Source: Bacteroidales bacterium (lineage in GTDB: Bacteria; Bacteroidota; Bacteroidia; Bacteroidales; VadinHA17). From it: 64,000 nucleotides of DNA. The stretch is from NCBI GenBank assembly GCA_003142255.1, contig PLLO01000006.1, positions 62,001 to 126,000 on the forward strand, given 5' to 3'. The position numbers were made by a program, and so were the translations under genes. Each line of letters opens with the position of its first letter. Within the stretch, counting starts at the first letter, position 1. Under the pieces are notes generated by a model that had not been told where the DNA came from, ran no database searches, and worked only from the letters and a program-made list of their open reading frames with translations. Positions 27,359-59,464 of this stretch are shown piece by piece.

Positions 27359-27517
27359 TATGAGTATCGGTAATCAATAACATGCTTTTGTTGATTTTCT
27401 TCGTTTGCCCCTTACCCTAAAGGGTGCGAAGAAAATCAATTACTCCCTTTAGGGCTGGGGCAAATAATTGATTTTCAAGCATAATATTTGTTTTATTATT
27501 GATACCAGATAGTCATA
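27359..27517. mobile_element. MITE-like element, copy 1 (159 bp, 8-bp target duplication)
   Basis: The left end reads TATGAGTATCGGTAATCA and the right end, read inwards, TATGACTATCTGGTATCA: imperfect terminal inverted repeats. AATTATTA lies directly outside both ends (27351-27358 and 27518-27525), an exact 8-bp direct repeat. The interior has a strong hairpin: TTTGCCCC (27404-27411) and CCCTAAAGGG (27415-27424) pair with CCCTTTAGGG (27445-27454) and GGGGCAAA (27457-27464). A competing stem of TTGATTTTCTTCG (27391-27403) pairs with 27427-27439. There is no coding potential. The sequence is nearly identical, inverted, to 52444-52634. It fills most of the gap 27283-27565. Confidence 0.8.
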
Positions 27518-27565
27518 AATTATTATATGATAATTAATGACGGAATTCATCATTTAACATTCATG

Positions 27566-27892
27566 TTAAATCTTTTTGCGCATTTTGACAATATCATAGG
27601 AATGATCAATCCATTTGAGAACCTCGGTGTCGGGGACAGATCCATCAATCATAACGGTGTTCCAGTGTTTTTTGTTCATGTGATAGCCCGGAACCACCGA
27701 GCTGTATCTTTCCCTTAATTCGAGGGCCAGTGCCGGGTCGCATTTAAGATTCAGGGAGAGTTCGCCATCAAGATTTGCAAGGAGAAAGATCTTGCCCGAT
27801 CTCTTGAATACAAGAGTGTCCTCGCCAAACGGAAAACTTTCTGTCACATCTTTCTTTGAAATACAATAATCACGGATTGTCTCAATATTCAT
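27566..27892 (-). CDS. MmcQ/YjbR-family protein
   Basis: A 108-residue protein of the MmcQ/YjbR (DUF419) family, with a CyaY-like fold and suspected DNA binding. Recognisable segments are IETIRDYCISKKDVTESFPFGEDTLVFKR, LNLKCDPALALELRERY and the C-terminal PGYHMNKKHWNTVMIDG. The true function is not established for the family. Its start codon overlaps the stop of yraN by 4 bases (ATGA), so it belongs to the leftward unit histidine kinase - response regulator - yraN - yjbR. Confidence 0.85.
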   Translation of the reverse strand: MNIETIRDYCISKKDVTESFPFGEDTLVFKRSGKIFLLANLDGELSLNLKCDPALALELRERYSSVVPGYHMNKKHWNTVMIDGSVPDTEVLKWIDHSYDIVKMRKKI

Positions 27893-28254
27893 CTGAGAGT
27901 CGGGTAAAAGGCATTCTCGATATGTTCGACCTTGAATGATTCTCCGTCTGAAATGACAGTGATGAGATCAAAACGGCACTCCTTTTGAACGCCATACCGT
28001 TGGACGTACCTGTCGGCGCAAAATACCAGAGACCGTTGTTTTTCCTTTGTAACCGCAGATGCCGGAGACATAATGAAATCCTCCGACCTGGTTTTTACTT
28101 CGACAAACACGGTATAATCTTTATTCTCGGCAATGATGTCAACTTCAAGCTTGCCTGCCTTCCAATTGCGTTTCAGTATCTTGTAGCCGGCCTTCTCGAG
28201 GTGAGCGGCAGCTTTATCCTCGCCCTGGCGGCCGAGATCATGGGATTCAGCCAT
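27889..28254 (-). CDS. YraN-family (UPF0102) nuclease-fold protein
   Basis: A 121-residue protein of the UPF0102/YraN family with a PD-(D/E)XK-like fold. N-terminal LGRQGEDKAAAHLEKAGYKILKRNW is typical, followed by LEVDIIAENKDYTVFVEVKTR, where Asp, Glu and Lys form the nuclease-like site. The start is set at the ATG at 28252-28254; a longer frame into the response-regulator gene lacks family similarity. Activity has not been shown for most members. It is coupled to yjbR through an ATGA overlap. Confidence 0.88.
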   Translation of the reverse strand: MAESHDLGRQGEDKAAAHLEKAGYKILKRNWKAGKLEVDIIAENKDYTVFVEVKTRSEDFIMSPASAVTKEKQRSLVFCADRYVQRYGVQKECRFDLITVISDGESFKVEHIENAFYPTLR

Positions 28255-28255
28255 A

Positions 28256-28897
28256 TTATATCTCGATAAGTTTGTTTCGGATGGCAAACAGGATAAGACT
28301 GGCTGTGTTCTTCGAATTGGTTTTTCCAAGAAGGTTTGCCCGGTGCTTATCTACTGTACGCTTGCTTATAAAGAGGGCCTCTGCAATTTCCTGGTTTGAC
28401 AGTCCTTCGCATATTTTAAGAAGTATCTCCTTTTCGCGCTTTGAAAGATTTGCAGATTTTGTCTCATGCTCGCGGTGTTTTATCTTCTGGATTACATGAT
28501 AAAGCAATTCCTGCGAGAAATAGCTTCCTCCCTTAACAACAGTCAGGATTGCATCCCTGACTTCGGAGATATCGGAATCCTTCAGAAGAAATCCCTTAGC
28601 ACCGGCATCAACCATCTTGTAGTAATATTCTTCTTCACCATACATGGAGAGTGCTATTATACTTATGTCGGGACACATCTTGATTCCCTTCCTCGTAGCT
28701 TCGATCCCATCCATTTCCGGCATACTTATGTCCATCAATGCAATATCGGCCTTAACTGATTTCAGCAATTTCAGGAATTCCTCGCCATTGGATGCCTCGC
28801 CGGCAACTTCAAAATCAGGGAATGAATTTAGCAGGATTTTTAATCCGTTTCTAAAGAGCTGATGATCGTCAGCAATTATGATCCTTATCTTGTTCAT
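28256..28897 (-). CDS. NarL/LuxR-type response regulator
   Basis: A 213-residue response regulator. The receiver domain has the acidic pair DD at residues 10-11, phosphoacceptor Asp56 (DIALMDISMPEMDG), the switch Ser in ALSMYG and Lys104 in GFLLKDSD. The C-terminal LuxR-type helix-turn-helix reads LSKREKEILLKICEGLSNQEIAEALFISKRTVDKH. It lies 24 bases downstream of its probable histidine kinase and 1 base before yraN. The target genes and the signal are unknown. Confidence 0.94.
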   Translation of the reverse strand: MNKIRIIIADDHQLFRNGLKILLNSFPDFEVAGEASNGEEFLKLLKSVKADIALMDISMPEMDGIEATRKGIKMCPDISIIALSMYGEEEYYYKMVDAGAKGFLLKDSDISEVRDAILTVVKGGSYFSQELLYHVIQKIKHREHETKSANLSKREKEILLKICEGLSNQEIAEALFISKRTVDKHRANLLGKTNSKNTASLILFAIRNKLIEI

Positions 28898-28921
28898 TTA
28901 ATCTATTGTCAGAAATCTTTA

Positions 28922-29869
28922 TCACTCAATAACTTTTATCAGCGCACTTGTTCCTTTCCCCGGAGTGCTTTCAAGAATGAAAACTCCCTCGACTGTTTTT
29001 ACGCGCGTTTCAATGTTTGACAGGCCCATTCCCTTGTTATCTTCAAGGCTGAGGCTTGATGTGTCAAACCCTCTTCCATTATCATAAAACTGCAAGGTAA
29101 CAATTTTTTCATTTTTGTTTAATTCGATTTCTATCCTTGATGCGCCGGAATGGCGTATGGAATTGTTAATTAATTCACAGGCGGCTCTGTATATGACTAC
29201 CTCTTTGTCATTCTCGAGCCGAACATCTTCCATATTCGATTTGAAGTCGATCTCTATGGCTTTTGTCTGGTTGATCTTGGATGTAAAAGCGCTGATGGCA
29301 CTGGCAAGACCGAAATTGGTAAGGACATGAGGGCTCAGATTATTGGAAATATCCTTAATAGTGCTGATAGCCTCATTTATGAGGTAATTGGTATTATTCA
29401 GGATAACCACACCCGAAGAATCACTTATCCGGGGACTAAGAGACGACAGCGACATCTTGACTGTCGAGAGTATTGGCCCGAGACCGTCATGAAGATCTTT
29501 TGCAAATCTTCTTCTTTCATTTTCCTCAGTGCTTATTATGGCATTCAGCACTCTCTTTTCCGTACGTGTGCGGTCTGTTTCAGCTCGTTTCAAAGAAAAA
29601 AATATTTCCCTGATCAGGATTACTCCAAAAATAATAAGGAAAGAGATCAGAACTCCTATCCACTCATCTATCATCTGCCAGGTCACCGAAGGTGTGCCTC
29701 TGAAGAACTCAAAGAACTGAATTATTTTGCGCACAGCCATGAATACAAATGCAAGGGATAAAAGTATCCAGGACAGCCTGTATTTTGTCAGCTTCATGAA
29801 ACTCAGAGCAACTGAAGCTGCAATTATCTGCAGTACGATTGATATCACCAGGGCGATAAGTCTTATCAT
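28922..29869 (-). CDS. membrane sensor histidine kinase, HisKA_3 (NarX/DesK) type
   Basis: A 315-residue kinase with three hydrophobic segments (about residues 4-24, 33-52 and 68-92), a short coiled linker and the HisKA_3 dimerisation/phosphoacceptor motif EENERRRFAKDLHDGLGPILS, with His127 as phosphorylation site. The HATPase_c domain contains ELINNSIRHSGAS (N box), DNGRGFD (G1) and GMGLSNIETRV (G2). There is no extracellular sensor domain, so it probably senses the membrane or an intramembrane signal. It is paired with the downstream NarL-type regulator. Confidence 0.92.
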   Translation of the reverse strand: MIRLIALVISIVLQIIAASVALSFMKLTKYRLSWILLSLAFVFMAVRKIIQFFEFFRGTPSVTWQMIDEWIGVLISFLIIFGVILIREIFFSLKRAETDRTRTEKRVLNAIISTEENERRRFAKDLHDGLGPILSTVKMSLSSLSPRISDSSGVVILNNTNYLINEAISTIKDISNNLSPHVLTNFGLASAISAFTSKINQTKAIEIDFKSNMEDVRLENDKEVVIYRAACELINNSIRHSGASRIEIELNKNEKIVTLQFYDNGRGFDTSSLSLEDNKGMGLSNIETRVKTVEGVFILESTPGKGTSALIKVIE

Positions 29870-29886
29870 AATATCAGCGATTTTTA

Positions 29887-29894
29887 CAAAAATA
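29887..29894 (-). promoter_or_regulatory. candidate -7 box for the histidine kinase operon
   Basis: The minus strand reads TATTTTTG, an exact TAnnTTTG match, 18-25 bases before the kinase ATG. It would drive the kinase, regulator, yraN and yjbR. Confidence 0.5.
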
Positions 29895-29923
29895 GGAGTT
29901 ATTTAATTAATGGAGTAAAGATT

Positions 29924-29950
29924 GTCTTGCAAGTCTTGCAAGTCTTGCAG
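29924..29950 (+). repeat. 9-bp tandem repeat, GTCTTGCAA x3
   Basis: Three contiguous copies of GTCTTGCAA (the last ending in G) lie in the gap between the divergent kinase and waaA genes. A related TTGCAGGTT follows at 29961-29969. Confidence 0.8.
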
Positions 29951-30002
29951 GTCCGGGTGGTTGCAGGTTGCCCTCGTCCCTTTATACCTTCATGCCTTCT
30001 CA

Positions 30003-30040
30003 CCATTGCACCGTTACGCCTTCGCTGAAGCTTCGGCGTA
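30003..30040. repeat. 8-bp GGTGCAAC-type repeat (inverted) and adjoining palindrome
   Basis: On the minus strand 30003-30020 reads GGCGTAAC, GGTGCAAT, GG, the same 8-base-period family as 9638-9671 and 24027-24052. It runs into an imperfect palindrome TACGCC...GGCGTA at 30015-30040 with GAAGCTTC inside, just upstream of the waaA -7 box. Confidence 0.5.
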
Positions 30041-30059
30041 CAAAGTGTACCATATTTAT

Positions 30060-30067
30060 TACCTTTG
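30060..30067 (+). promoter_or_regulatory. candidate -7 box for waaA
   Basis: TACCTTTG matches TAnnTTTG exactly and lies 20-27 bases before the waaA ATG. Confidence 0.5.
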
Positions 30068-30086
30068 AAACTTCATTTTAAAAGCT

Positions 30087-31310
30087 ATGCGGTTAATATA
30101 CAACGCCGGAATTTTTTTTTACAGCGCCATTGCATGGATCATTGCTCCGTTTAATCAAAAAGCGCATGCGTGGGTAGATGGACGAAAAAACTGGTTTAAT
30201 TCATTGAAGCAGAAAGTCATTCCGGGAGAAAAATATATATGGATACACTGTGCATCCCTTGGAGAATTTGAACAGGGAAGGCCGGTGATTGAATCGCTGA
30301 AAAAAGAGAAACCTGCCTGCCATATACTGCTAACTTTTTTCTCGCCGTCAGGTTATGAAATAAGGAAGGATTATCCACTCGCAGATATTATATGTTACCT
30401 GCCTTACGATACACTCCGGAATGCTGAAAAGTTCATCTCTCTTGTGAATCCTTCCATTGCCATTCTTGTGAAGTATGAATTCTGGGACAATTTTATTTCT
30501 GCCATTTACAGGAAGCACATTCCGCTCTATCTGATCTCCGGGATATTCAGAAAGGAGCAGCATTTTTTTAAATGGTATGGCGGCTTCTTCCGGAAGATGC
30601 TCAGGAAATTTACCAGGATCTTTGTCCAGGACAAGGAATCATCCGATCTCCTTGGATTAATAGGTATAACTAATGTAGTTGTCGCAGGCGATACGAGGTT
30701 CGACAGGGTTGCCGAGATCGCAGCAAGGGCAAAAGAGATACCGCAGATTGAATTGTTCAGGGGAGATCAGAAGCTTTTTCTCGCCGGTAGCAGCTGGAAG
30801 CAGGATGAAGAGATCATTGCAAGGTATATTAATTTGCATCCTGAAACTATGAAGTGGGTTTTTGCCCCTCATGAAATTGACAGGGAAAATATTGAGAGGC
30901 TGGAAAAATTATTTACCGTAAAATGTGTCAGGTTCTCTGGTTTCAGTGATGAATCAAAAGATGCCAGAGTAATGATCATGGATAATATAGGGATGCTTTC
31001 CTCGGCTTACCGGTATGCAGGTATAGCTGCCGTTGGAGGCGGTTTCGGAAAGGGGATACACAATATTCTGGAACCCGCATGCTGGAGCATCCCGGTTTTG
31101 TTTGGGCCCAACTACGGAAAATTTCGCGAAGCTGTTGATCTGATAAACCTGGAAGGTGCAAAATCTTTTAATGATTATCCGGGCTTTGAAGAGATCCTTG
31201 ACAGATGGATCTCTGATGCAGCACTTTACCAGAAAGCTGCAGCGCTGGCAGGCGAATATATTAATAAAAACATGGGAGCCACCAGCCTTATCATGAAAGA
31301 AATCGTGTGA
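30087..31310 (+). CDS. waaA: 3-deoxy-D-manno-octulosonic acid (KDO) transferase
   Basis: A 407-residue GT30 glycosyltransferase that adds KDO to lipid IV-A in lipopolysaccharide assembly. The N-terminal hydrophobic segment (YNAGIFFYSAIAWIIAPF) anchors it to the inner membrane. Diagnostic stretches are IWIHCASLGEFEQGRPVIESL (Glu of the GE motif), ILLTFFSPSGYEI, KYEFWDNFI, AGSSWKQDEEI, FAPHEID and the donor-site GGGFGKGIHNILEPACWSIPVLFGP. Length is normal. It is a single-gene unit with its own -7 box. Confidence 0.94.
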   Translation: MRLIYNAGIFFYSAIAWIIAPFNQKAHAWVDGRKNWFNSLKQKVIPGEKYIWIHCASLGEFEQGRPVIESLKKEKPACHILLTFFSPSGYEIRKDYPLADIICYLPYDTLRNAEKFISLVNPSIAILVKYEFWDNFISAIYRKHIPLYLISGIFRKEQHFFKWYGGFFRKMLRKFTRIFVQDKESSDLLGLIGITNVVVAGDTRFDRVAEIAARAKEIPQIELFRGDQKLFLAGSSWKQDEEIIARYINLHPETMKWVFAPHEIDRENIERLEKLFTVKCVRFSGFSDESKDARVMIMDNIGMLSSAYRYAGIAAVGGGFGKGIHNILEPACWSIPVLFGPNYGKFREAVDLINLEGAKSFNDYPGFEEILDRWISDAALYQKAAALAGEYINKNMGATSLIMKEIV

Positions 31311-31316
31311 AATATA

Positions 31317-31344
31317 TTAACAAGAGATATTCATAACTTGTTAA
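31317..31344 (+). repeat. 8-bp inverted repeat after waaA
   Basis: TTAACAAG (31317-31324) and CTTGTTAA (31337-31344) form a perfect 8-bp stem 7 bases after the waaA stop. The downstream sequence is not a clean T run, so a terminator role is only possible. The gap to the receptor gene holds nothing else recognisable. Confidence 0.45.
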
Positions 31345-31493
31345 TAACTAATCTTTTGAAATTCAAAAGGATCATTCAAAGAGATGTAAATTAATCCGCC
31401 CGGAATCGACAGAAATATAGTTTTCTTTTAATCGGATAATCAATTAATTATGATAATCAAGTCAAAAAAATTATTAATCCTAATCCTAATTTT

Positions 31494-34400
31494 ATGATGA
31501 AACATTACAAGTTTTTATTAACGATGTTGTTATTGCTGGTCGTCCCGTTCATTATGTATGGCCAGGGAGCAACAACGTCTTCAATGAGCGGAAAGGTGCT
31601 TGACAGCAAGGGAGAAGCTCTTACTGGTGCAAGTATCGTTGCAATCCACGTACCTTCAGGGACTCAGTATGCTACCAATACTGATAATTCCGGAAACTAT
31701 CGCATTCAGAATATGCGTATTGGCGGGCCTTATACAGTGAAAGTCTCCTTTATCGGATATGCTGCAAGCAGTTATACCGATATTATATTGAAACTTGGTG
31801 AAACTTATATCCAGGATGCAAAGCTGGGAGAGGCAACAACGACCTTGCAGGAGGTTGTTGTAACAGCCGGCTTTAAAAATTCCATCTTAAGTTCAGCGCG
31901 GTCAGGCCCGCAGACAAACGTGAGCAACCGTGACCTGACTACTCTTCCTTCGATAAGCAGGAGTCTTACCGATTTCACAAAGTTCACTCCCCAGGCACAA
32001 GGAAATTCATTCGGCGGACGTGACGGACGTTTCAATACCATAACCGTCGACGGTGCTGCATTTAACAATAACTTTGGATTAAGCAGCAATCCTCTTCCCG
32101 GTGGAGAAGCACAGCCCATCTCTCTTGATGCAATTGAAGAAGTATCTGTGAACGTTGCGCCATACGACATTCGCATGTCTAATTTCACCGGTGCAAGCGT
32201 CAATGCTGTTACCAAAAGCGGCGACAACACATTTAAAGCATCGGTTTATACGTATCAGCGTCCGAAATCATTTACGGGCAACAAAGTTGATACATTTATC
32301 GTTGCAGGTGCCCATACCAGGAGCCAGCAAACATATGGCGGTCGCGTTGGCGGCCCCATTATTAAAGACAAACTCTTTTTCTTCCTGAGCGGAGAATATG
32401 AAAAAGTTTCTGTGCCGGGTGTAGACTGGAAACCAAGCACCGATGGTGTTGCCAATGCTAACCAGATGATCTCGCGCACAACCGAGGCCGACATGCTTGC
32501 TGTCAAGAATTACCTCATGACGACATACAATTATGATCCGGGTAAATACAAGGATTTTGATCCGTTCCATAATCAGAACCATAAGGTTCTTGCAAGGATC
32601 GACTGGAATATCTCACAGAATCACAAGTTCACTTTAAGATACAATGATGTTGTTGGTACTTCTGACCAGCAGACTAACTTCAACAGTGGTCCGCCGAACA
32701 ACGCTAAAAACTCCGGTCGTATCAGCAGCCAGTCTCTGGCCTTTTCAGGTGCCTTTTATGGATTCCAAAACACAGTGCGTTCAATAACAGGTGAGTTAAA
32801 CAGCACTTTCGCTAAAAAATTCGCGAATAAGCTGCTTGCCAGCTACACACATATACAGGATACCCGGACAAGCCCTTCATCTCCTTTCCCGTTTGTTGAT
32901 ATATGGCAGGGTGGTGACCAGTACATGTCGTTCGGATATGAGCTTTTCAGCTATAACAATAATGTGGTCAATAATACATTAAGTTTTACAGATAACTTAA
33001 CCATTAACCTTAACAGGCATACGATTACTGCAGGAGCTTCATTTGACCGTCTTTTCTTCCTTAACTCATACATCCGCGAAGGAACGTCATACTATCGTTA
33101 CGCTTCAGTCAACGATTTTCTCACAGGTGCAAATCCTACCGGATTCGGTATTACTTATGGATATAACGGAAATGATGCACCGGGTTCTGAGCTTACTTTT
33201 GGCGTCGGAGCTCTTTATGCACAGGATGAATGGAATGTTCTTCCCAATTTAAAAGTAACCTATGGAGTGCGTCTTGAAAAAACCTTCTATTTTGATAAGA
33301 TGCAGAACAATCCGGCAATTTCAGCTCTTACATTTGCCGATAACCAGAAAATTGATGTCAGTTCATGGCCAAAATCTACACTGCTGGCATCTCCCCGCCT
33401 TGGTTTCAACTGGGATGTTAAGGGTGACCGTTCACTGCAGGTTCGCGGAGGATCAGGTCTCTTTACCGGATTATTACCATTTGTATGGTTTACAAACCAG
33501 CCGACTGCTTCTGGTCTGATACAGATTCCTGAAATAGGATGGAGCACAACCAGTGGCGCGGCTAACCTTGTCGGACTGGCATTCAATCCTGATTTTAAAG
33601 CACTTATTGCCAGCAAACCTGCCTTGTTCCCGCAAAGCCCAAGCACACTGCCCAGTGGATCATCATTGGCACAGGTGGGTAAAAATTTCAAAATGCCAAG
33701 AGTATGGCGTTCAAACATAAGCTTTGACGTTGAATTACCATGGAATATGGTATTCACGGGAGAAGCTATGTATTCCAAGGACATAAATGCTGTTAAACAG
33801 GTCAATATCAACGAAGGAGCTCCGGCAGGATATATGACTGGTCCTGACAACCGTCCCTACTGGACAACAGCAGGAAGAACAGTTGTAAGCACTGTATCCT
33901 ATGCCATGCAGCTTGAGAACACAAAAGAAGGGTATCAGTATTCATTCACTGCCCAGCTGACCAAAAATTTCAGCAAAGGACTTTCAGGGATGTTTGCCTA
34001 TACTTATACCATGGCCAAGGATATTACCTCAAATCCTGGCTCTTCGGCATCTTCCGCTTTCTCTTCAAACACTGCAGTTGGCAGTCTGAACGATCCGGGG
34101 TTAAGCTATTCAGGTTTTGCCACACCTCATAGGCTTATTGGCAATATCTCCTACAGGATCGAATATGCCAAATTCTTTGCAACAACTATTTCAGTGGTTT
34201 ACCAGGGATATCAGACAGGCCGCTGGTCCTATACCTACTCCAATGACCTCAATAACGACAATATGTCATCTGATCTGATGTATATCCCCAAAACTGCTGA
34301 TGAAATTAATTTTGCTGCTGCCAGTGGTATGACTGCTCTTGATCAGCAGACTGCTTTCTGGAATTATGTCAATAGTAATAAGTACCTGAGCAGTCGGAAA

Positions 34401-34766
34401 GGTCAGTATGCTGAACGTTTCGGACAGCTTCAGCCATGGCTGCACAGGTTTGATGCAAAATTTGTTGAGGATGTTTTCTCAAACTTCGGAACCAGTCGTA
34501 AATATACTCTCCAGTTTACAGTCGACATATTGAATATAGGTAACCTTCTTAATAATAAATGGGGCGCATATACCTATAATCCGTTGGCAAGTTATGATAA
34601 CGTTCGCCCGCTGGCTGTTGTTACAAAAGGTACCAATACAACGGCTCCGGTTTACAAGCTTAATGCAACATCGTTAGATAATTTTACGGCTCTGACGACT
34701 CTCAGTAAGAGCATAAGCACATCAAGCACCTGGGGTTGCCTTCTTGGCTTCCGCCTGATTTTCTAG
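31494..34766 (+). CDS. Oar-like TonB-dependent outer-membrane receptor
   Basis: A 1090-residue protein. Residues 1 to about 23 form a signal peptide (LLTMLLLLVVPFIMYGQG). Residues 27 to about 108 form a carboxypeptidase-regulatory/CNA-B-like beta domain (MSGKVLDSKGEALTGASIVAI, DNSGNYRIQNMRIGGPYTVKVSFIGY). EVVVTAG introduces a plug domain, with FGGRDGRFNTITVDGAAFNN and SLDAIEEVSVNVAPYD, followed by a long beta-barrel ending in Phe (CLLGFRLIF). This is the Oar-type receptor layout rather than the SusC/RagA type, and no SusD gene is adjacent. The transported substrate is unknown. A strong terminator follows. A second start codon lies at 31497. Confidence 0.9.
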   Translation: MMKHYKFLLTMLLLLVVPFIMYGQGATTSSMSGKVLDSKGEALTGASIVAIHVPSGTQYATNTDNSGNYRIQNMRIGGPYTVKVSFIGYAASSYTDIILKLGETYIQDAKLGEATTTLQEVVVTAGFKNSILSSARSGPQTNVSNRDLTTLPSISRSLTDFTKFTPQAQGNSFGGRDGRFNTITVDGAAFNNNFGLSSNPLPGGEAQPISLDAIEEVSVNVAPYDIRMSNFTGASVNAVTKSGDNTFKASVYTYQRPKSFTGNKVDTFIVAGAHTRSQQTYGGRVGGPIIKDKLFFFLSGEYEKVSVPGVDWKPSTDGVANANQMISRTTEADMLAVKNYLMTTYNYDPGKYKDFDPFHNQNHKVLARIDWNISQNHKFTLRYNDVVGTSDQQTNFNSGPPNNAKNSGRISSQSLAFSGAFYGFQNTVRSITGELNSTFAKKFANKLLASYTHIQDTRTSPSSPFPFVDIWQGGDQYMSFGYELFSYNNNVVNNTLSFTDNLTINLNRHTITAGASFDRLFFLNSYIREGTSYYRYASVNDFLTGANPTGFGITYGYNGNDAPGSELTFGVGALYAQDEWNVLPNLKVTYGVRLEKTFYFDKMQNNPAISALTFADNQKIDVSSWPKSTLLASPRLGFNWDVKGDRSLQVRGGSGLFTGLLPFVWFTNQPTASGLIQIPEIGWSTTSGAANLVGLAFNPDFKALIASKPALFPQSPSTLPSGSSLAQVGKNFKMPRVWRSNISFDVELPWNMVFTGEAMYSKDINAVKQVNINEGAPAGYMTGPDNRPYWTTAGRTVVSTVSYAMQLENTKEGYQYSFTAQLTKNFSKGLSGMFAYTYTMAKDITSNPGSSASSAFSSNTAVGSLNDPGLSYSGFATPHRLIGNISYRIEYAKFFATTISVVYQGYQTGRWSYTYSNDLNNDNMSSDLMYIPKTADEINFAAASGMTALDQQTAFWNYVNSNKYLSSRKGQYAERFGQLQPWLHRFDAKFVEDVFSNFGTSRKYTLQFTVDILNIGNLLNNKWGAYTYNPLASYDNVRPLAVVTKGTNTTAPVYKLNATSLDNFTALTTLSKSISTSSTWGCLLGFRLIF

Positions 34767-34788
34767 AAAAAGATGCTTAATTTTTTAA

Positions 34789-34818
34789 GGGGTTATCTTT
34801 CAGATGACCCCTTTTTTT
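34789..34818 (+). terminator. Rho-independent terminator after the TonB-dependent receptor
   Basis: The 9-bp stem GGGGTTATC / GATGACCCC (34789-34797, 34803-34811, one G-T pair) with a short loop is followed by TTTTTTTA, 23 bases past the stop codon. Confidence 0.85.
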
Positions 34819-34848: not shown

Positions 34849-35265
34849 AGATTCTTCGCTTCGCTCAGAATGACAAGAGTCTCGTGTGTGGAGAGTTGAA
34901 GGGGGAGGTTGGAGGCAATGCCTCCAACCTCCCCCTTCTTCAGGAAAGTACTCTTTATACACCTATATTTTGAAATCCTTTAGCCACAAGGTAACACAGA
35001 GTAAATGTTTAATTGATAAAGAGATTCCTAACGCTCGGAATTACAGTGTTGTTTTAGGTAATAGGGAAGCATAGGCGTTTCGCCAAGGCGAAACGCCTAT
35101 GCTTCCCTTCCTTTATAACAAATGAATTGTCATTCCGAATGAATCCGCCTGCAGGCGGAGGAATGAGGAATCTCCCCTGACATAAATGGAATGATTAAAA
35201 TGATGTGTATAAAGTGTTGCTTCAGGAACACAGGTATCTGTCATTCTGAGCGAAGCGAAGAATCT
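34849..35265. repeat. 27-bp perfect inverted repeat flanking nested hairpins (copy B, outer)
   Basis: The outer arms 34849-34875 (AGATTCTTCGCTTCGCTC...) and 35239-35265 are perfect inverted 27-mers. After the left arm comes a 20-bp-arm hairpin (34898-34917 and 34919-34938, one-base loop, arms starting GAAGGGGGAGG). A CTTTATACAC / GTGTATAAAG pair (34953-34962, 35205-35214) lies further in. The interior holds a full second composite at 35021-35174. This reads as one composite element with another inserted in its middle. It occupies most of the 808-base gene-free gap 34767-35574. Confidence 0.75.
35021..35174. repeat. composite inverted repeat with 21-bp-arm hairpin (copy B, inner)
   Basis: The left arm 35021-35045 (GAGATTCCTAACGCTCGG...) and right arm 35129-35174 (TGTCATTCCG... 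ending GAGGAATCTC) flank a perfect 21-bp-arm hairpin (35064-35084 and 35087-35107, loop AA; arms begin GGGAAGCATAGG and end TTTCGCC). Spacing is 18 bases on the left and 21 on the right. The right arm carries an inserted palindrome, CCGCCTGCAGGCGG. Same architecture as 24127-24273 and 59261-59420. Confidence 0.8.
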
Positions 35266-38178: not shown

Positions 38179-38183
38179 TAATA

Positions 38184-52287: not shown

Positions 52288-52302
52288 CTTAAGCATGAAC
52301 AA

Positions 52303-52310
52303 CAAAGGAA
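52303..52310 (-). promoter_or_regulatory. weak -7 box candidate for the metal efflux operon
   Basis: The minus strand reads TTCCTTTG, one base off TAnnTTTG, 16-23 bases before the preferred start. No metal-regulator operator was recognised. The gap 52306-52443 otherwise holds AT-rich sequence without recognisable features. Confidence 0.3.
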
Positions 52311-52443
52311 CGAAAAAGTTGTATAGAATATCATATTTAAGTACTATTTAACATTTTAGCCCTAATTAACAAAGCCTGCTGCAAGGCAATAATATAAAAG
52401 TTCATCACGACGCAACTCATTTCATTTCTTTCATTTAACTTTA

Positions 52444-52634
52444 TATGACTATCGGGTATCAATAATAAAACAAATATTGTGCTTGAAAATCAATTATTTG
52501 CCCCAGCCCTAAAGGGAGTAATTGATTTTGACTGCGTCGAGCTCGCACTACATGCTCGGTTCTTCGCACCCTTTAGGGTAAGGGGCAAACGAAGAAAATC
52601 AACAAAAGTATGTTATTGATTACCGATACTCATA
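52444..52634. mobile_element. MITE-like element, copy 2 (191 bp, inverted, 32-base insert)
   Basis: Read on the minus strand it begins TATGAGTATCGGTAATCA and follows copy 1 (27359-27517) almost base for base, with both nested stems. It differs mainly by 32 extra bases at 52530-52561 in the hairpin loop, including the palindrome CGAGCTCG (52538-52545). No matching 8-bp direct repeat flanks this copy. It ends 18 bases before the start codon of the next gene and could supply or disturb its leader. Confidence 0.8.
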
Positions 52635-52652
52635 AAATTAAATATTACAACT

Positions 52653-53711
52653 ATGAAGATCATTAAAAAGATCCTTAAGGCGATTCTGGCAGTGATACTG
52701 CTTTTAGTTCTTGTATTTGCAGGTATTATAGTTTATGCAGTCATTTCCGACTATAAGCCTGAAGAAAAAACTATTATTTTTCATTCAAACAAGCCTGACA
52801 CCCTGAATGATTCACTTGAAATTTCCTTTATGACCTGGAATATAGGATATTGCGGGCTTGACAAAGAGATGGATTTCTTCTATGACGGCGGAACGAAAGT
52901 GATGACCCCAAAGAAAAAATGCCTTGAAAACCTTGAGGCAGTAAAGAATCTTCTCCGGGAGAATGATTCAATTGATTTTTTTCTTCTGCAGGAAGTTGAC
53001 AGGAACAGCAAGAGGAGCTATCATTTCGATGAATACGATACCATAACAAAAGTTCTTGAGGATTATCATCCGTTTTTTGCCACGAATTATAAAGTCTTTT
53101 TTGTCCCCGTACCACTGGCATCTCCAATGGGAAAGGTGCTTTCGGGAATTGCGCTGTTCAGCAGGCATCAGCCGTCATCGTCGGTAAGGTATGCCTTCCC
53201 CGGGCAGTATGGTTTTCCAAAGCAGCTTTTCATGCTCGACAGGTGTTTTCTGGTTAACAGGTATCCATTGCACAACGGCAAGGAGCTGCTGGTGATAAAT
53301 ACGCATAATGAAGCATTTGACCCCGGAGAGATCCGCAAAGCCCAGATGGCATACCTTAAGGAATTCCTTCTGTCAGAATATGCAAAGGGCAATTACATTA
53401 TCGCCGGCGGAGACTGGAACCAGTCGCCTCCTGATTTTAAGCCTGTCTTCAGCGGAAACGTAGTTAATAAAGATCAGATGATGATGACCTCCGATTACCT
53501 GCCCCCTGACTGGAAATGGGTTTATGACAATAATAATCCTTCCAACAGAACAGTTATTGCTGCTTATGATCCGTCAACTACTACCACAACAGTCATAGAT
53601 ATTTTCCTGTTGTCGCCGAATGTCAGGGGAATATCAGTCAACTGCATAAACCTTAATTTCGAGAATTCCGATCACAACCCGGTAAGGGTGAAAGTCAGGC
53701 TGGCAGAATAA
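52653..53711 (+). CDS. membrane-anchored endonuclease/exonuclease/phosphatase-family protein
   Basis: A 352-residue protein. An N-terminal membrane anchor (ILKAILAVILLLVLVFAGIIVYAVI) is followed by an EEP-fold domain: ISFMTWNIGYCGLD (Asn metal ligand), FLLQEVDRNSKRSY (Glu ligand), IAGGDWNQSP (Asp/Asn pair) and NSDHNPVRVKV (catalytic Asp/His). The family includes DNases, sphingomyelinases and inositol phosphatases; the substrate cannot be inferred. The active domain would face the periplasm. Upstream is the MITE-like copy 2, with no recognisable promoter between. Confidence 0.82.
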   Translation: MKIIKKILKAILAVILLLVLVFAGIIVYAVISDYKPEEKTIIFHSNKPDTLNDSLEISFMTWNIGYCGLDKEMDFFYDGGTKVMTPKKKCLENLEAVKNLLRENDSIDFFLLQEVDRNSKRSYHFDEYDTITKVLEDYHPFFATNYKVFFVPVPLASPMGKVLSGIALFSRHQPSSSVRYAFPGQYGFPKQLFMLDRCFLVNRYPLHNGKELLVINTHNEAFDPGEIRKAQMAYLKEFLLSEYAKGNYIIAGGDWNQSPPDFKPVFSGNVVNKDQMMMTSDYLPPDWKWVYDNNNPSNRTVIAAYDPSTTTTTVIDIFLLSPNVRGISVNCINLNFENSDHNPVRVKVRLAE

Positions 53712-53898
53712 AGGTCTTTTATTGACAATGAAGGCAGGATAAGTAGGAAGAAAAGTACCCAAGTTGTCTGAGTTACCTGCAGATCATAATAAAAGTAATT
53801 AAGTCAGTGTTTTATTTTGATTTAATTACCCTCCGTTTTATAAATATTTACTAACTTTTCAGAATATATACCTGGTCAGTAACTTAACAAATATTGAA

Positions 53899-54411
53899 AT
53901 GAGAATCTTAATTACCGGGACCATAGTGTTTGTGATCTGGTGCTTTTTCTCATCATGGCTTTACAACGACATTTTGCTGCCTGTCATGAGGAAGCCCGTT
54001 CCTGCACTGGCAACTCCCGTAAGTCAAACTAATGAGGCTGATTCTTTAATGAAACTTAAAGCAATGATGCCTAAGAATCTATCGATCTACTTTGAATTTA
54101 ATGATTCCAAATTCAAACCTGATCCGCAATATGACAACAGCATAGCTGCATTCAAAGCCTGGCTTGATAAATATCCCGGATCAATGCTTTCCGTGGAGGG
54201 ATATACCGATCTTGTCGGTACAACCGAATTTAACCAGGCTCTGGGGCTGAAAAGAGCCTATATCGTTGGTAAATACCTCGAGGGGCATGGGATAACCACC
54301 GACAAGATAATGGCAAAATCGAAAGGTGAAGATACCCATGCAGTAGATTATATTACCGCGGACGGCAGAGCAAAAAGCAGAAGAACAGATATTTCAATTA
54401 AAATGCAATAA
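53899..54411 (+). CDS. OmpA-family protein with N-terminal membrane anchor
   Basis: A 170-residue protein with an N-terminal hydrophobic anchor (ILITGTIVFVIWCFFSSWLY) and a C-terminal OmpA peptidoglycan-binding domain: LSIYFEFNDSKFKPDPQYDNSI, SVEGYTDLVGTTEFNQALGLKRAYIVGKYL, ending RAKSRRTDISI with the conserved Arg. It probably tethers the inner membrane to peptidoglycan. The next gene starts 1 base after the stop, so the two form a unit. The 187-base gap upstream shows nothing recognisable. Confidence 0.87.
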   Translation: MRILITGTIVFVIWCFFSSWLYNDILLPVMRKPVPALATPVSQTNEADSLMKLKAMMPKNLSIYFEFNDSKFKPDPQYDNSIAAFKAWLDKYPGSMLSVEGYTDLVGTTEFNQALGLKRAYIVGKYLEGHGITTDKIMAKSKGEDTHAVDYITADGRAKSRRTDISIKMQ

Positions 54412-54412
54412 T

Positions 54413-54727
54413 ATGACACCACTATTCATACAACTGGCACAGTCTGTCACAGGAGCAGTAATAACCATTGTGGCATTGCTTCTCGTCGCAGCACTCATCG
54501 GATATTTAACTGCATGGTATTATGCCAAGTCAATTTATACTCCGATAATCAAAGGTCTTGAAGCCGAAAAGGCTGATCTCCAGAAGCAGGTCGCAGATCT
54601 GAAGGAAAACGTCAGCAAGCTTAATAATAAAGTTGACGAGCTAAATTCAAAAATAGGGAAGCTGGAAGAGGAAGCAGGGAATAAGGAGAAGGAGATTGCT
54701 GAACTTAAAAAGAAAATTAAGGAATAA
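54413..54727 (+). CDS. small membrane protein with C-terminal coiled coil
   Basis: A 104-residue protein with one membrane helix (VTGAVITIVALLLVAALIGYLTAWYYAKSI, about residues 13-40). It is followed by a heptad-rich coiled coil of about 60 residues (LEAEKADLQKQVADLKENVSKL... to the end), rich in Lys, Glu and Leu. No family is recognised. It is 1 base downstream of the OmpA gene; together they suggest a small envelope complex or a spacer between membrane and wall. Confidence 0.8.
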   Translation: MTPLFIQLAQSVTGAVITIVALLLVAALIGYLTAWYYAKSIYTPIIKGLEAEKADLQKQVADLKENVSKLNNKVDELNSKIGKLEEEAGNKEKEIAELKKKIKE

Positions 54728-54805
54728 TTTTCCGGTCATTCAGTATTAAATTTATTTTAACTTTATTTTTCCGAAGTAAATCTATTCGTCGGGTCTATAT
54801 TTTTT

Positions 54806-56530
54806 ATGTATATGGATAAACCCAGAAATTTTAAAAGCATTTTTCCACCACTGCAATGGCTCCCGGGCTACAATACTAAATTTTTAAGCTCTGATGCCAT
54901 CGCCGGCCTTACACTCACTGCTTATGCTATTCCGGTATCTCTTGCTTATGCTACCCTGGCCGGGTTGCCGCCTCAATACGGTATCTTCGGATACCTCCTT
55001 GGCGGGCTTTTTTACGCAATGCTTGGGACCGGCAAGCAACTGGCAATAGGACCGACATCAGCCATTTCCATGGTTGTGGGAATAACACTGGCAAAGCTTT
55101 CAGGAGGCGACCCCCAGCGATGGCTCGACCTTGCCTCATTAACTGCCCTGATACTGGCCTCAATGAGCTTCCTGGCTTATATCCTGCATCTCGATAGTAT
55201 TATTAATTTCATAAGCGAGACCGTGCTTACAGGGTTCAAGGCCGGAGCGGCACTTACAATCATGCTTACCCAGCTGCCAAAGATGTTTGGAGTTCCAGGA
55301 GGGGGAACTAATTTTTTCTCGAGGCTTGGTGAAATTGTACACCAGCTTCCTAACACCAATTTTTATGTGCTGGTCTTTGGAATTATTGCTTTTCTACTGA
55401 TCCTCTTCGGGGAAAAATTCTTCCATGGGAAACCCGTAGCGATATATATCGTCATCCTTTCAGTACTGATCATCTCTTTCACTCCGCTTGCACAACACGG
55501 GTTTAAAACAGTCGGGTTGATTCCGGCAGGGCTACCCAAATTTCATATTCCATCTCTGAAATGGGATGATATCCAGAGCGTTATATCTCTTTCATTTGCC
55601 TGTTTCCTGCTTGCGTACATAGAATCAGTATCGGCTGCCAGGACTTTAGCACAAAAGAATGAATATGAGATAAATGCTCACCAGGAGTTGCTGGCTCTGG
55701 GTTTAGCCAACCTGGCAACATCCTTTGGTAACGGTTACCCGGTAAGCGGCGGATTATCTCAATCAGCAGTAAACGACGAAGCCGGGGCCAAGACACCAAT
55801 GTCACTTGTGTTTGCTTCCTTCTTTATAGGGCTGTGCCTTCTGTTCCTGACAGGCTTGCTGAAGAACCTGCCCACGGTTATTCTTGCAGCTATTGTATTT
55901 GTAGCTGTCGAAAAGCTGATCAATATCAAGGAATTCAGGAGGATGTGGAAAGTAAATAAATTTGACTTTGTAATTGCCATGCTTGCTGCCGTATGTGTTA
56001 TCTGTTTTGGCATTTTGCAGGGAGTCCTCATAGGCGCTCTTGCTTCACTTATCCTGATCATTAAGTTTGTTTCAAGTCCGCATGTGGCAATTCTTGGAAG
56101 GATCCCGGGAACGGAAAGATATACTGATATTAAAAGGCACCCTGATAACCAGACTACTCCCGGCATTCTCCTTTTCAGGGTCGAATCGCCGCTGGTCTAT
56201 TTTAACGTCAATTTTGTTTACAGCCATATCTGGCCCATAATTTCAGAGAATGCCGCAACAGTGAAAATCGTTATCCTTGATCTTAGCACCTCTGCATATA
56301 TTGATTCAAGCGGTGCAAGACTGATAAAGAAACTTTATCTGAACATGGAATCAAAAGGGATCATATTCAAAGTTGCGGAAGCACATTCAGAGGTTCGCGA
56401 CATCCTGAGGTTTGAAGATATCGAGCATCTTCTCGGACACGTAAGCAGGAGAGATTCAGTGCATGATGTAATCACTCATACACTTTCAGAGACCGAAATG
56501 CGCGACAAAATCAGGGAAGAATCTGTCTGA
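54806..56530 (+). CDS. SulP-family anion transporter with STAS domain
   Basis: A 574-residue inner-membrane protein of the SLC26/SulP family. The transport domain has SDAIAGLTLTAYAIPVSLAYATLAGLPPQYGIFGYLLGGLFYAMLGTGKQLAIGPTSAISM (the Tyr/Pro-rich signature) and several later helices. The C-terminal STAS domain, from about residue 445, contains VKIVILDLSTSAYIDSSGARLIKKL with the conserved Asp-Ser-Ser-Gly. Substrates in the family include sulfate, bicarbonate and dicarboxylates, and cannot be chosen here. No sulfur-assimilation genes are close. It is convergent with a small membrane protein gene, 30 bases apart. Confidence 0.93.
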   Translation: MYMDKPRNFKSIFPPLQWLPGYNTKFLSSDAIAGLTLTAYAIPVSLAYATLAGLPPQYGIFGYLLGGLFYAMLGTGKQLAIGPTSAISMVVGITLAKLSGGDPQRWLDLASLTALILASMSFLAYILHLDSIINFISETVLTGFKAGAALTIMLTQLPKMFGVPGGGTNFFSRLGEIVHQLPNTNFYVLVFGIIAFLLILFGEKFFHGKPVAIYIVILSVLIISFTPLAQHGFKTVGLIPAGLPKFHIPSLKWDDIQSVISLSFACFLLAYIESVSAARTLAQKNEYEINAHQELLALGLANLATSFGNGYPVSGGLSQSAVNDEAGAKTPMSLVFASFFIGLCLLFLTGLLKNLPTVILAAIVFVAVEKLINIKEFRRMWKVNKFDFVIAMLAAVCVICFGILQGVLIGALASLILIIKFVSSPHVAILGRIPGTERYTDIKRHPDNQTTPGILLFRVESPLVYFNVNFVYSHIWPIISENAATVKIVILDLSTSAYIDSSGARLIKKLYLNMESKGIIFKVAEAHSEVRDILRFEDIEHLLGHVSRRDSVHDVITHTLSETEMRDKIREESV

Positions 56531-56560
56531 CGCTCTTGTTAAGAAGTGTCCCTGGTATAT

Positions 56561-56968
56561 TTATTCGGCAGGGATATTATTCCCCTCCGCGAGATTCTTT
56601 TCTTTCAGGTAATGGCTGATAATGAATAATACACCAGACAGGATAAAAGGAAACGCTAATGCCATAACAGGATAGAAAACATTCCAGAAATTTCCATGAT
56701 GCATGTAATTGGTCCTGATAAGAAAAAGTCCCATAGCCAGACCAACTATAGAAAGTATTATCCCACCAATCTTTTCCCATTTCCAGGCAACAATAAGCAG
56801 AATAATCAGGATGAATGATGGAATCATATGGATAATAAAAGCCAGAAGCTGATGCCAGACCGTCTGTCCCGGTCCAAAAGCATCTAATGCAAACACACTT
56901 ATCAGAAGGATTGCGAGCATGCAAAGGATTCGCGGAGTCCAGTGAGTGATCTTAGTCAGTTTGTTCAT
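56561..56968 (-). CDS. four-helix small membrane protein of unknown function
   Basis: A 135-residue protein, started at the ATG at 56966-56968, with four predicted membrane segments: ILCMLAILLISVFALDAFG, LLAFIIHMIPSFILIILLIVAW, IILSIVGLAMGLFLI and VFYPVMALAFPFILSGVLFIIS. The order and the conserved FGPGQTVWHQL and HGNFWNV stretches look like a Bacteroidota family I know only as hypothetical. A longer frame to 57046 was rejected. Its role is unknown. Confidence 0.75.
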   Translation of the reverse strand: MNKLTKITHWTPRILCMLAILLISVFALDAFGPGQTVWHQLLAFIIHMIPSFILIILLIVAWKWEKIGGIILSIVGLAMGLFLIRTNYMHHGNFWNVFYPVMALAFPFILSGVLFIISHYLKEKNLAEGNNIPAE

Positions 56969-57056
56969 AATTCTTTGGTAATAAAACAATAAGCTAAAAC
57001 TTAACTGCGATAAATATAGCATATTTTTTGCTGGTTGAAAAAACACGGGAATATGT

Positions 57057-57064
57057 TACTTTTG
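57057..57064 (+). promoter_or_regulatory. candidate -7 box for the CotH gene
   Basis: TACTTTTG matches TAnnTTTG exactly, 23-30 bases before the ATG at 57087. GTTG at 57034-57037 is close to -33 spacing. Confidence 0.5.
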
Positions 57065-57086
57065 ATGACTTGAATCGAGCGTTGTG

Positions 57087-59114
57087 ATGCGATATATTTT
57101 CACTTTTGTACTATTTACGATTTCTCTTGCCTGGCAGGCATCAGCTCAAATCCTTAACAACAGCAACCTGCCGATCGTAATCATTAACACTGATGGTAAT
57201 GTACCGATATTAGATAACCCCAGGGTTCTGGCAAACATGAAAATTATTTATAGGGGGCAGGGGATAAGAAATTATGTTTCGGACCAGAATATCGCCGGCT
57301 ACTTAAATTATAACGGAAGAATAGATATTGAAATACGAGGTTCATCATCCCAGGTGACTGATAAAAAGCAGTATGGCTTTACAACCAGGATGGCTGATAA
57401 CATCACAAATAATAATGTAAGCCTGCTTGGAATGCCCTCGGAAAATGACTGGATACTGAACGGGATGGTTTTTGACCCGGCACGCATGCGTGATTACCTC
57501 TGCTATAACCTGTCGAGGCAGATCGGGGAATATGCCTCCCGCACTGCTTATTGTGAAGTAATTATCAATGGCGACTACAGGGGCCTTTACCTTCTGCAGG
57601 AAAAGATAAAGGCTGATAAGGACAGGGTGAATGTAATTAAGATAGGCACGGGGGATATTTATACTCCTGAAGTCACAGGAGGGTATATAACCAAGGCCGA
57701 TAAGCTAACGGGAGGCGACATTCCTGCCTGGACAATGTCTCAATGGTACGGAGGAAGTGTAGATTATATTCATGAGCTTCCCAAGCCCGAAAACGTGACT
57801 CCGGAGCAAAACGACTACATAAAAAGTCAGTTTGATAACCTTGCAAATGCGGCAATTTATCATAATGTTTCTCTTATTGATGGCATTTCCTCTGTAATTG
57901 ATGTCCCCTCTTTTATCGATCACATGATAATAAGTGAACTCAGCTCAAATGCAGACGCATACCAGTTCAGTACTTATTTTCATAAGGACAGGAACGGGAA
58001 GCTAAGAGCAGGGCCTATCTGGGACAATGACCTGACCTATGGGAATGATCTGTTTTTCTGGGGTCTTGACCGGAGTAAGACAAATATTTGGCAGTTTTCA
58101 AATGGCGATAATGATGGTTCACGATTCTGGCGCGACCTTTTTAATACTTCGAAATTCCAATGCTACCTTTCAAAGAGATGGAATAAGCTCATTTCCCCGG
58201 GTCAGCCGTTAAACCTGAACAGCCTGAACAACTTCATTGATCAGACAGCAGCAACTATCACTGAAGCGGTTGGAAGGGAATATGCAATATGGGGCATAAC
58301 TGGAAATTTTACTTCCCAGATTGCATCAATAAAATCATTTCTGAATTCCAGGATTGCCTGGATGACTTCAACACTGGGCTCATATTCGTCATGCAGCAAT
58401 GTTGTCATGCCCTCCCTGGTGATTACAAAAATCAACTATAACCCAAAAGCATCGATTGATTTTCCTGAAAGTGATGCCCTGGAGTTTATCGAGATCAGCA
58501 ATACGGGTACAGTTACTGTCGATCTGACAGGTATCTATTTTGCCGGGACAGGTCTTGTATATCAGTTTCCTCCTAATTCTACGCTCCCTCCTGACTCGTC
58601 TGTTTTTCTTTCGGGCAATACAGCTGTTTTCCAGGTAAAGTATGGATTCTCTCCTTTTGGCAAGTTTACACGCGACCTTTCAAACAAAAGTCAGAATATT
58701 GTTCTTGCCGATGGTTTCGGAAACGTAATAGACAATGTTTATTATTATGATTCTTCTCCCTGGCCGGATGCTGATGGCAATGGATATTATCTTCAGCTGA
58801 CAGACCCGGCTCTTGACAATAATGTGGCAGAAAGCTGGACAGCATCAAATGAAGCCGACATCAAGCGAGATAGTTTCCAAAGCGAAGAGTTTGTTAAGAT
58901 CTATCCCAACCCCGTCGACGATTTCTTGAAAATAAGTTCAGATAAGGCAATAGGCCAGTTAAGAATATATGATATGCAGGGGAGGCTGCTTGTATCTGAA
59001 AGCATCAGCTCCGATACTTACGAGCTGAATGTCAGCCGATTCCCGAAAGGAGCTTATATAATCAGAGTGGTAAGCGCAGGCAAGGCATATACAAAAGGAA
59101 TTATCAAACGATAA
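57087..59114 (+). CDS. secreted CotH-kinase-like protein with lamin-tail and T9SS sorting domains
   Basis: A 675-residue exported protein. After a signal peptide (FTFVLFTISLAWQASAQ) comes a CotH-type kinase domain, roughly residues 25-400: GRIDIEIRGSSSQ, KKQYGFTTR, LLGMPSENDWILNG, YRGLYLLQEKIK and GPIWDNDLTYGND. Then follow a lamin-tail-like domain (LVITKINYNPKAS, ALEFIEISNTGTVTVDLTG) and a type A T9SS C-terminal sorting domain (VKIYPNPVDDFLKI, LRIYDMQGRLL, FPKGAYIIRVVS). CotH proteins in spore formers are protein kinases; in Bacteroidota the substrate is unknown. The ATG directly after a GTG is used. Ends in a hairpin terminator. Confidence 0.9.
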   Translation: MRYIFTFVLFTISLAWQASAQILNNSNLPIVIINTDGNVPILDNPRVLANMKIIYRGQGIRNYVSDQNIAGYLNYNGRIDIEIRGSSSQVTDKKQYGFTTRMADNITNNNVSLLGMPSENDWILNGMVFDPARMRDYLCYNLSRQIGEYASRTAYCEVIINGDYRGLYLLQEKIKADKDRVNVIKIGTGDIYTPEVTGGYITKADKLTGGDIPAWTMSQWYGGSVDYIHELPKPENVTPEQNDYIKSQFDNLANAAIYHNVSLIDGISSVIDVPSFIDHMIISELSSNADAYQFSTYFHKDRNGKLRAGPIWDNDLTYGNDLFFWGLDRSKTNIWQFSNGDNDGSRFWRDLFNTSKFQCYLSKRWNKLISPGQPLNLNSLNNFIDQTAATITEAVGREYAIWGITGNFTSQIASIKSFLNSRIAWMTSTLGSYSSCSNVVMPSLVITKINYNPKASIDFPESDALEFIEISNTGTVTVDLTGIYFAGTGLVYQFPPNSTLPPDSSVFLSGNTAVFQVKYGFSPFGKFTRDLSNKSQNIVLADGFGNVIDNVYYYDSSPWPDADGNGYYLQLTDPALDNNVAESWTASNEADIKRDSFQSEEFVKIYPNPVDDFLKISSDKAIGQLRIYDMQGRLLVSESISSDTYELNVSRFPKGAYIIRVVSAGKAYTKGIIKR

Positions 59115-59158
59115 GTATTTCCAGGGATTTACTGATCAGGACCATTTAATAAAAAAAG

Positions 59159-59187
59159 GGATAATCATTTTTGATCATCCCTTTTTT
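59159..59187 (+). terminator. Rho-independent terminator after the CotH gene
   Basis: Stem GGGATAATCA (59159-59168) with TGATCATCCC (59172-59181), one mismatch, short T-rich loop, then TTTTTT. It starts 44 bases after the stop codon. The neighbouring MITE-like element begins just past the T tract. Confidence 0.8.
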
Positions 59188-59191
59188 CTTA

Positions 59192-59464
59192 AATGAGTAT
59201 CGGGAATCATGCATATAATACGTATTTCTTTTTGAGCCAGGATACAGTTTCTCTTAATTGGAGATTCCTCACTTCTCCGCCTGATGGCGGATTCGTTCGG
59301 AATGACAACATCAATTGGTGAAGTGTGATGGGGAAGCAGTGGAGATTCGCTCAGCGAATCTCCACTGCTTCCCTTATGCCACATAAAATCCTGTCATTCC
59401 GAGCGTTAGCGAGGAATCTCATAATCAATTGTTTTGAGATTATTATTGATAACTGATATTCATA
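59192..59464. mobile_element. MITE-like element, copy 3 (273 bp, different cargo, 8-bp target duplication)
   Basis: The left end AATGAGTATCGGGAATCA and right end (read inwards TATGAATATCAGTTATCA) match the terminal inverted repeats of the other two elements. TTTTCTTA lies directly outside both ends (59184-59191 and 59465-59472), an exact 8-bp direct repeat like that of copy 1. The interior is not the TTTGCCCC hairpin type but the composite hairpin repeat at 59261-59420. No coding potential. The element and terminator fill the 372-base gap 59115-59486. Confidence 0.75.
59261..59420. repeat. composite inverted repeat with 21-bp-arm hairpin (copy C)
   Basis: The left arm 59261-59307 (GAGATTCCTC ... 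GGAATGACA) and right arm 59392-59420 (TGTCATTCCGAGCG ... GAGGAATCTC) flank a perfect 21-bp-arm hairpin (59331-59351 and 59353-59373, one-base loop; arms begin GGGAAGCAGTGG and end GATTCGCT). It is 23 bases from the left arm and 18 from the right. It lies inside the MITE-like copy 3. Confidence 0.8.

Follow-up and report, generated by a model that had tools for sequence, protein, structure and literature searches.

What moved three short noncoding elements into the genome of a Bacteroidales bacterium, and to what kind of mobile DNA do they belong? The question arises from a 64,000-nucleotide stretch (hereafter the window; C1:62001-126000 of a 3.73-Mb home assembly in 19 contigs), in which the elements E1, E2, and E3 share imperfect terminal inverted repeats, WATGASTATCRG being common to all three when read directly in the window. 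A sequence-only reading of the window had reported three noncoding elements with these ends and exact 8-bp direct repeats outside two of them, had argued from the matched duplications for transposition by one enzyme and, with no transposase in the window, for mobilization in trans, and had left the family unrecognized. Direct reading of the ends and flanks bears out both observations, the duplicated flanks being those of E1 and E3, and the family can now be tied to the IS1595 family via the domains and ends of a partner transposase. Specifically, E1, E2, and E3 are very probably miniature inverted-repeat transposable elements (MITEs) of an IS1595-family insertion sequence, and an insertion sequence of this type most likely moved them in trans. 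What had been an unrecognized repeat is now a family of elements whose transposase type can be named and whose ends can be tested: a WATGA-ended IS1595-type insertion sequence most likely seeded nonautonomous elements across a Bacteroidales genus known from metagenome assemblies, with unrelated palindromes carried in one transposon frame.

Ends and Target Duplications Across the Genus

E1 (ends TATGAGTATCGG and TATGACTATCTG) and E2 (ends TATGACTATCGG and TATGAGTATCGG) align as a single sequence in two orientations, and E3 (ends AATGAGTATCGG and TATGAATATCAG) has only its ends in common with them. A 22-base end pattern, allowed up to two mismatches, matches the home genome 11 times, compared with none for the reversed control pattern, and the exact 18-bp end pattern WATGANTATCDGNNATCA is present in 38 of 62 genus genomes, again with none for a reversed control. 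Further copies in the genome and its relatives, for which the sequence-only reading had proposed a search, keep the fixed ends and the 8-bp duplications. Within the home genome six copies carry both ends, and the duplication is exact at three of these, 7/8 at one, and absent at two (E2 and a copy on contig C11); the expectation of fixed ends thus held throughout, and that of flanking duplications in most copies.

For the genus, inverted end pairs spanning 60–600 bp, with at most two mismatches per end and three in total and with the flanks ignored, gave 61 nonredundant elements, a set that retains two L132 rows with a common right end, an insertion sequence deletion copy (L449), and five elements with runs of N (L136, L140, L201, L299, and L358). 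The 8-bp flanks are identical in 29 of the 61 and agree with at most one mismatch in 42, as against a mean of 0.72 (maximum 5) for exact matches in 2,000 shuffles of the flanks and a mean of 3.3 (maximum 11) when one mismatch is allowed. Exact flank matches at lengths of 5–7 and 9–12 bp occur in just 0–2 elements per length, and 227 of the 232 bases in the exact duplications are A or T. These figures, together with the partner described below, support the earlier argument for a single enzyme. Under the selection used, the elements measure 82–552 bp; their ends of ∼18–24 bp start WATGA (consensus WATGASTATCRGNNATCA), and in 40 of the 61 one end has G at position 6 (GAG) and the other has C (GAC). 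A candidate empty site was also found: locus L333, from another genome, aligns loosely as the orthologous counterpart of the site of a 122-bp element with a run of N (L140 9602-9723, flanks TTATTTTA and ATATTTTT) and has a single ATATTTTA without the element. In two genomes, G004 (L177-L188) and G046 (L189-L196), many contigs break within near-identical element copies, which suggests recent multiplication there.

A Probable Partner Transposase of the IS1595 Family

A longer form of the end was scanned in 84,980 species genomes and found in 76 stretches; the titles of 74 name Bacteroidetes, Bacteroidales, or Bacteroidia. In HGW-Bacteroidetes-4, three contigs stop 74–76 bases into one terminus and four stop 74–77 bases into the other; the stretches contain no palindrome, and within the second terminus lies the coding sequence for DVNLIKFI, the conserved transposase start. 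The flanking 8-mers pair contig C12 with C24 (TAAAATAA) and C9 with C27 (TAAAAAAT), such that two of the three left flanks match one of the four right flanks, with one left and two right flanks unpaired. This arrangement of contig ends has the appearance of a collapsed multicopy transposon. A query that combined both termini hit 86 of 393 order genomes at E 0.01, with a best E below 1e-6 in 11; most of the other matching genomes look like chance.

The transposase gene bounded by the same ends, which the sequence-only reading had suggested seeking, was found in three elements of ∼1 kb from other families of the order (L417, L418, and L423; Table 1). Each has a single gene with 314–316 codons over the aligned stretch, and the L417 and L423 proteins (the latter with a short unread stretch) are 61–62% identical to that of L418. 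All three score above the curated cut-off for the IS1595-type catalytic domain PF12762 (E 4e-22 to 4e-26) and for the zinc ribbon PF12760 (E 1e-7 to 9e-6; marginal for L417, at 26.0 vs. 25.4 bits), as well as for NF033547 (E 2e-55 to 9e-61). D133 and D219 are invariant in six sequences; at the third catalytic position, an alignment at 26% identity sets H252 against the E of the other-subgroup protein L287. In the PDB, the transposase has no sequence relative at E 0.1. A sister transposase clade (L416, L419, L422, and L425) has TTATGCCAG upstream in place of WATGA-type ends; L416 and L419 are 42–47% identical to L418, and L419 is likewise above cut-off for PF12762, NF033547, and PF12760.

Pieces of the same transposase clade occur in the genus itself. 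With tblastn at 47% identity or more, they were found in at least 10 of 60 genomes (G006, G007, G013, G016, G022, G028, G029, G030, G045, and G053). A profile built from four proteins (L417, L418, L423, and the sister-clade L419) matches 30 of the 60, many of the matches spanning only residues ∼10–123 of ∼150- to 165-aa open reading frames (ORFs) that look like other zinc-ribbon proteins. Just 5′ of the transposase start, three same-genus copies (L445, L447, and L470, from G045, G029, and G007) have TATGA(G/A)TGTCGG(G/T)AATGA, and directly past the transposase end two others (L449 and L455, from G028 and G022) have TATGACTATCGGTAATG. At position 6, transposase-bearing copies read GAC on the stop side in six of six and GAG on the start side in 7 of 10, and thus resemble the two ends of most MITEs. 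In addition, the copy at L449 1374-1733, 360 bp long, has lost internal sequence but keeps both ends, along with a decayed remnant of the gene's C-terminal part; a deletion of this kind is a step on the way from an insertion sequence to a MITE. PF12762 searched in 16 genus genomes matches in G041 and G042 only; these IS1595 proteins are ∼24% identical to the partner, belong to another subgroup, and lack the ends in question, and it was the collapsed contig ends of HGW-Bacteroidetes-4 that led to the partner. Other-subgroup IS1595 proteins at L287, L288, and L448 (G019) likewise showed no such end pair with a duplication.

Because the elements hold ends only, they would depend on a transposase made elsewhere. 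In the mechanism we propose, a ∼315-aa transposase, its IS1595-type catalytic domain preceded by an N-terminal zinc ribbon, would bind the ∼18- to 24-bp ends, the element would be excised or copied and then joined to an AT-rich target, and a cut with an 8-nt stagger would leave the 8-bp duplication. The DNA itself shows the fixed ends, the 8-bp duplications, the ∼1-kb transposase elements, and the same-genus remnants with such ends; the chemistry of the cut, whether cut-and-paste or copying, is presumed. Since no transposase of this type was detected in the home assembly, we infer mobilization in trans, by an element that may have been lost, left unassembled, or kept in relatives.

Weighing the Evidence and the Alternatives

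Several observations weigh against an IS1595-type origin, or at least temper it. Duplications are lacking at two of the six home copies, E2 (flanks TAACTTTA and AAATTAAA, mismatched at 4/8) and the C11 copy, as well as at the insertion sequence copy L417 (5/8 differ) and the deleted copy in L449 (4/8 differ). The home assembly gave no match to PF12762 or to the four-protein profile, PF12762 being a weak test that also missed an N-terminal piece in G045. The same-genus transposase copies are broken, partial, or at contig ends: the frame in G030:C165 is open, reaches the contig end, and has no motif at its upstream end, and two of five start-side ends (L446 and L469; genomes G030 and G053) lack a clear motif. 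The start-side rule also has exceptions, with GAC in L423 and HGW-Bacteroidetes-4 and GAA in L470, and the MITE and transposase-copy ends agree over ∼12–18 bp, not over their full length. The two flank pairs of HGW-Bacteroidetes-4 come from 12 possible pairings of AT-rich octamers, for which ∼0.14 would be expected from the permuted rate. Finally, the empty site is the outcome for one element of 61 tried, with flanks that differ at 2/8 and a loose alignment.

A different DDE transposase that makes 8-bp duplications, such as one of the IS4/IS5 type (PF01609), might instead have moved the elements. Such transposases are frequent in the genus, with PF01609 in at least 46 of 60 genomes, and elements of the ISPepr1 type of IS4 make 7- to 8-bp duplications (PMC2266710). 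Among 70 PF01609 loci read out of a longer list, however, none has a close end pair (at most two mismatches over two 12-base ends) together with a duplication; L250, L251, and L262 have loose pairs with 7/8 flanks, 4–5 mismatches, and no further inverted repeat, and look like chance. Moreover, the ISPepr1 ends are YT-AA-YTT, vs. WATGASTATC here (PMC2266710), and the existence of IS1595 copies with the latter ends weakens the case further. We consider this explanation improbable. Still less credible, and for the family as a whole refuted by the duplication statistics, is the idea that the elements are structural repeats (palindromic terminators or REP-like sequences) spread by recombination, with flanking repeats that arise by chance in AT-rich DNA. 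The intergenic position of E1, E2, and E3, the strong folding of E1 and E3, and a palindrome of E3 that is widespread mostly without these ends would all fit that idea, but it does not accommodate the excess of exact duplications over the permuted mean, the exact duplications at palindrome-free elements (5 of 12), or the candidate empty site.

A further possibility is compatible with an IS1595-type origin: the home copies may be old fossils of a family that is extinct in this lineage, with duplications that record past movement. We regard this as nearly an even question, leaning slightly to the negative. The lack of a detected transposase in the home assembly, the two home copies without a duplication, and the broken or fragmentary state of the same-genus transposases speak for it; the perfect duplications at three home copies, the 96% identity between E3 and its sister copy on contig C7, and the several near-identical copies at contig ends in G004 and G046 speak against it.

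Palindromic Interiors

At least four unrelated palindromes occur between the same ends. Told apart by short motifs, the types number 21 (P1), 10 (P2), seven (P3), and five (P4) among the 61 elements, with two mixed and 16 with none, although one of the 16, the C18 copy of the home genome (L003), is P1 by alignment. Counterparts without a palindrome exist: L318 3876-3957 is an 82-bp counterpart of E1 and E2 (compare window 27359-27517), and L137 2937-3019 is a counterpart of L132 2853-3013. The difference between forms with and without P1 is ∼77 bp, with direct repeats of (A)ATTGATTTTC on either side. Because the palindrome holds a third, inverted copy of this repeat, loss of P1 by slippage between the direct repeats is the simplest reading; a gain of P1 by insertion would be a less simple alternative. 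The 12 elements of 82–84 bp without a palindrome have an exact duplication in five and a one-mismatch duplication in four more. Given that palindromes differ between elements and are missing from some, movement probably does not require them, and the interior would be dispensable passenger DNA.

A BLAST search of the home genome with the P2 palindrome of E3 gave 66 matches, several being pieces or reverse-strand matches of one copy; within the ends described here P2 is found in two complete copies and the decayed copy on C16. It may be a separate repeat family. More P2 matches (GAGATTCCTC ... GGAATGACA) lie in the window at ∼24183-24273 and 35011-35175 (C1:86183-86273 and C1:97011-97175) without close ends, and several home P2 copies have a conserved left flank like TATACATATCTTTTTAATCATTTTGTTTATGTCAGG. 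Folding was computed for E1 and E3 only (z −6.4 and −9.7, respectively). Small inserts of 32 and 36 bp (GAGCTCGACG and CGGTTCTTCG type) are nested in the palindromes of E2 and of the C11 copy in L004, at sites that vary between copies.

Of the features of this system, the mixing of palindromes within a single mobile frame is least well accounted for. A tentative idea, which we think rather unlikely as it stands, is that IS1595-type ends frame interchangeable long palindromes (P1–P4), whose gain and loss would be a repeated process and not a set of accidents. If this is true, then the mobile frame would spread structured DNA with possible effects on transcript ends or replication, a pair of short direct repeats being the point of clean entry or exit of P1, which itself harbors smaller palindromes.

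Relation to Known Systems

The family is new, and it is of an already known kind, an IS1595-derived MITE having been published before. In Haloquadratum walsbyi, a 165-bp MITE in seven copies has the putative IS1595-family parent ISHwa6, 25-bp inverted repeats, and 8-bp duplications (PMC3852290); its host is archaeal, and the likeness is one of tabulated features. The IS1595 family is described as usually making 8-bp A/T-rich duplications and as having a zinc finger in groups except IS1016 (PMC8101967, PMC12561309), and the partner resembles it in transposase domain, single gene, zinc ribbon, and duplication length and differs in that its third catalytic position aligns as H. The elements and their partner do not fit the IS1016 group or Merlin (GG ends, no zinc ribbon): ends of the IS1016-group element ISApl4 start GGGGCTGT, in contrast to WATGA here (PMC12561309, PMC8101967), and IS1016 lacks the zinc finger that the partner has as a zinc ribbon (PMC8101967).

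Within the Bacteroidales, the MITEs of Porphyromonas gingivalis, BrickBuilt among them, similarly place related terminal repeats around unrelated repetitive interiors; unlike the present elements, they are described as having IS5-type ends, variable or no duplications, and tandem repeats instead of palindromes (PMC4596501). The ISPepr1 subgroup of IS4 shares the 7- to 8-bp duplications and AT-rich targets (PMC2266710) and differs in its ends; in the 70 PF01609 loci read, no transposase had the ends seen here. A literature search, to which subscription journals were mostly outside, returned no description of this family. In viral contigs, neither the long end pattern nor the HGW-Bacteroidetes-4 subterminal sequence found a match; a shorter pattern gave 13 stretches, and among the partners listed for these none has a good end with a matching flank.

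Feature Coordinates and Neighboring Sequences

Coordinates are collected in Table 1. All three window elements are intergenic relative to the predicted ORFs and contain no ORF of 80 aa, and in the window Rfam gave no match at gathering scores.

Table 1. Elements, target duplications, interior modules, and partner elements. Plain positions are those of the window, C-prefixed positions those of home contigs, and positions in L418 and L423 those of the respective locus.
Feature	Position	Strand	Description
E1	27359-27517	+	159 bp, noncoding; imperfect terminal inverted repeats, first 24 bases per end
E1 left target duplication	27351-27358	.	AATTATTA, 8 bp; exact match to right copy
E1 right target duplication	27518-27525	.	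AATTATTA, 8 bp; exact match to left copy
P1 palindrome of E1	27390-27466	+	missing in 82-bp L318; bounds approximate, from alignment
E2	52444-52634	-	191 bp; E1 type, reverse orientation; no target duplication
Small insert in E2 palindrome	52530-52561	-	32 bp; also in C18 copy, absent from E1
E3	59192-59464	+	273 bp; same ends, palindromic interior unrelated to E1/E2
E3 left target duplication	59184-59191	.	TTTTCTTA, 8 bp; exact match to right copy
E3 right target duplication	59465-59472	.	TTTTCTTA, 8 bp; exact match to left copy
P2 palindrome of E3	59260-59430	+	GAGATTCCTC ... GGAATGACA ... GAGGAATCTC; genome-wide repeat, mostly without these ends
C18 copy (L003)	C18:5779-5969		both ends; flanks TTTAATAG/TTTAATAT, 7/8
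C7 copy	C7:808280-808552		both ends; exact duplication TTATTTAT
C11 copy	C11:314631-314825		both ends; no duplication
Interior-only fragment	C17		home genome
Lone end	C7:439774
Probable decayed E3-type copy	C16:227925-228125
L418	565-1570		complete element, 1006 bp; TTAAAGAT at both flanks, exact 8 bp
L423	213-1227		1015 bp; TTTTATAA at both flanks, exact 8 bp
L417			1012 bp; ends present; no duplication (5/8 differ)

Three longer candidates were rejected. L207 3080-4151 is a 1072-bp composite with the same ends, nested repeats or inserts, and a 59-aa ORF, presumably resembling the C terminus of a Y1 (REP-type) transposase; L336 consists of two MITEs that flank two genes, which we take to be sulfatase-like and oxidoreductase-like; and L175 is a decayed copy adjoining a gene that we take to be secD. 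The element at L201 1098-1452 is split by another inverted-repeat insert starting GGGGCTGTTGAAAAAGTCC. Genes near the window elements include those for papain-type peptidase, endonuclease/phosphatase-type, CotH-type, and family-3 glycosidase proteins. Three of the six complete home copies fall within 32 kb of the 3.73-Mb genome (window 27359-59464).

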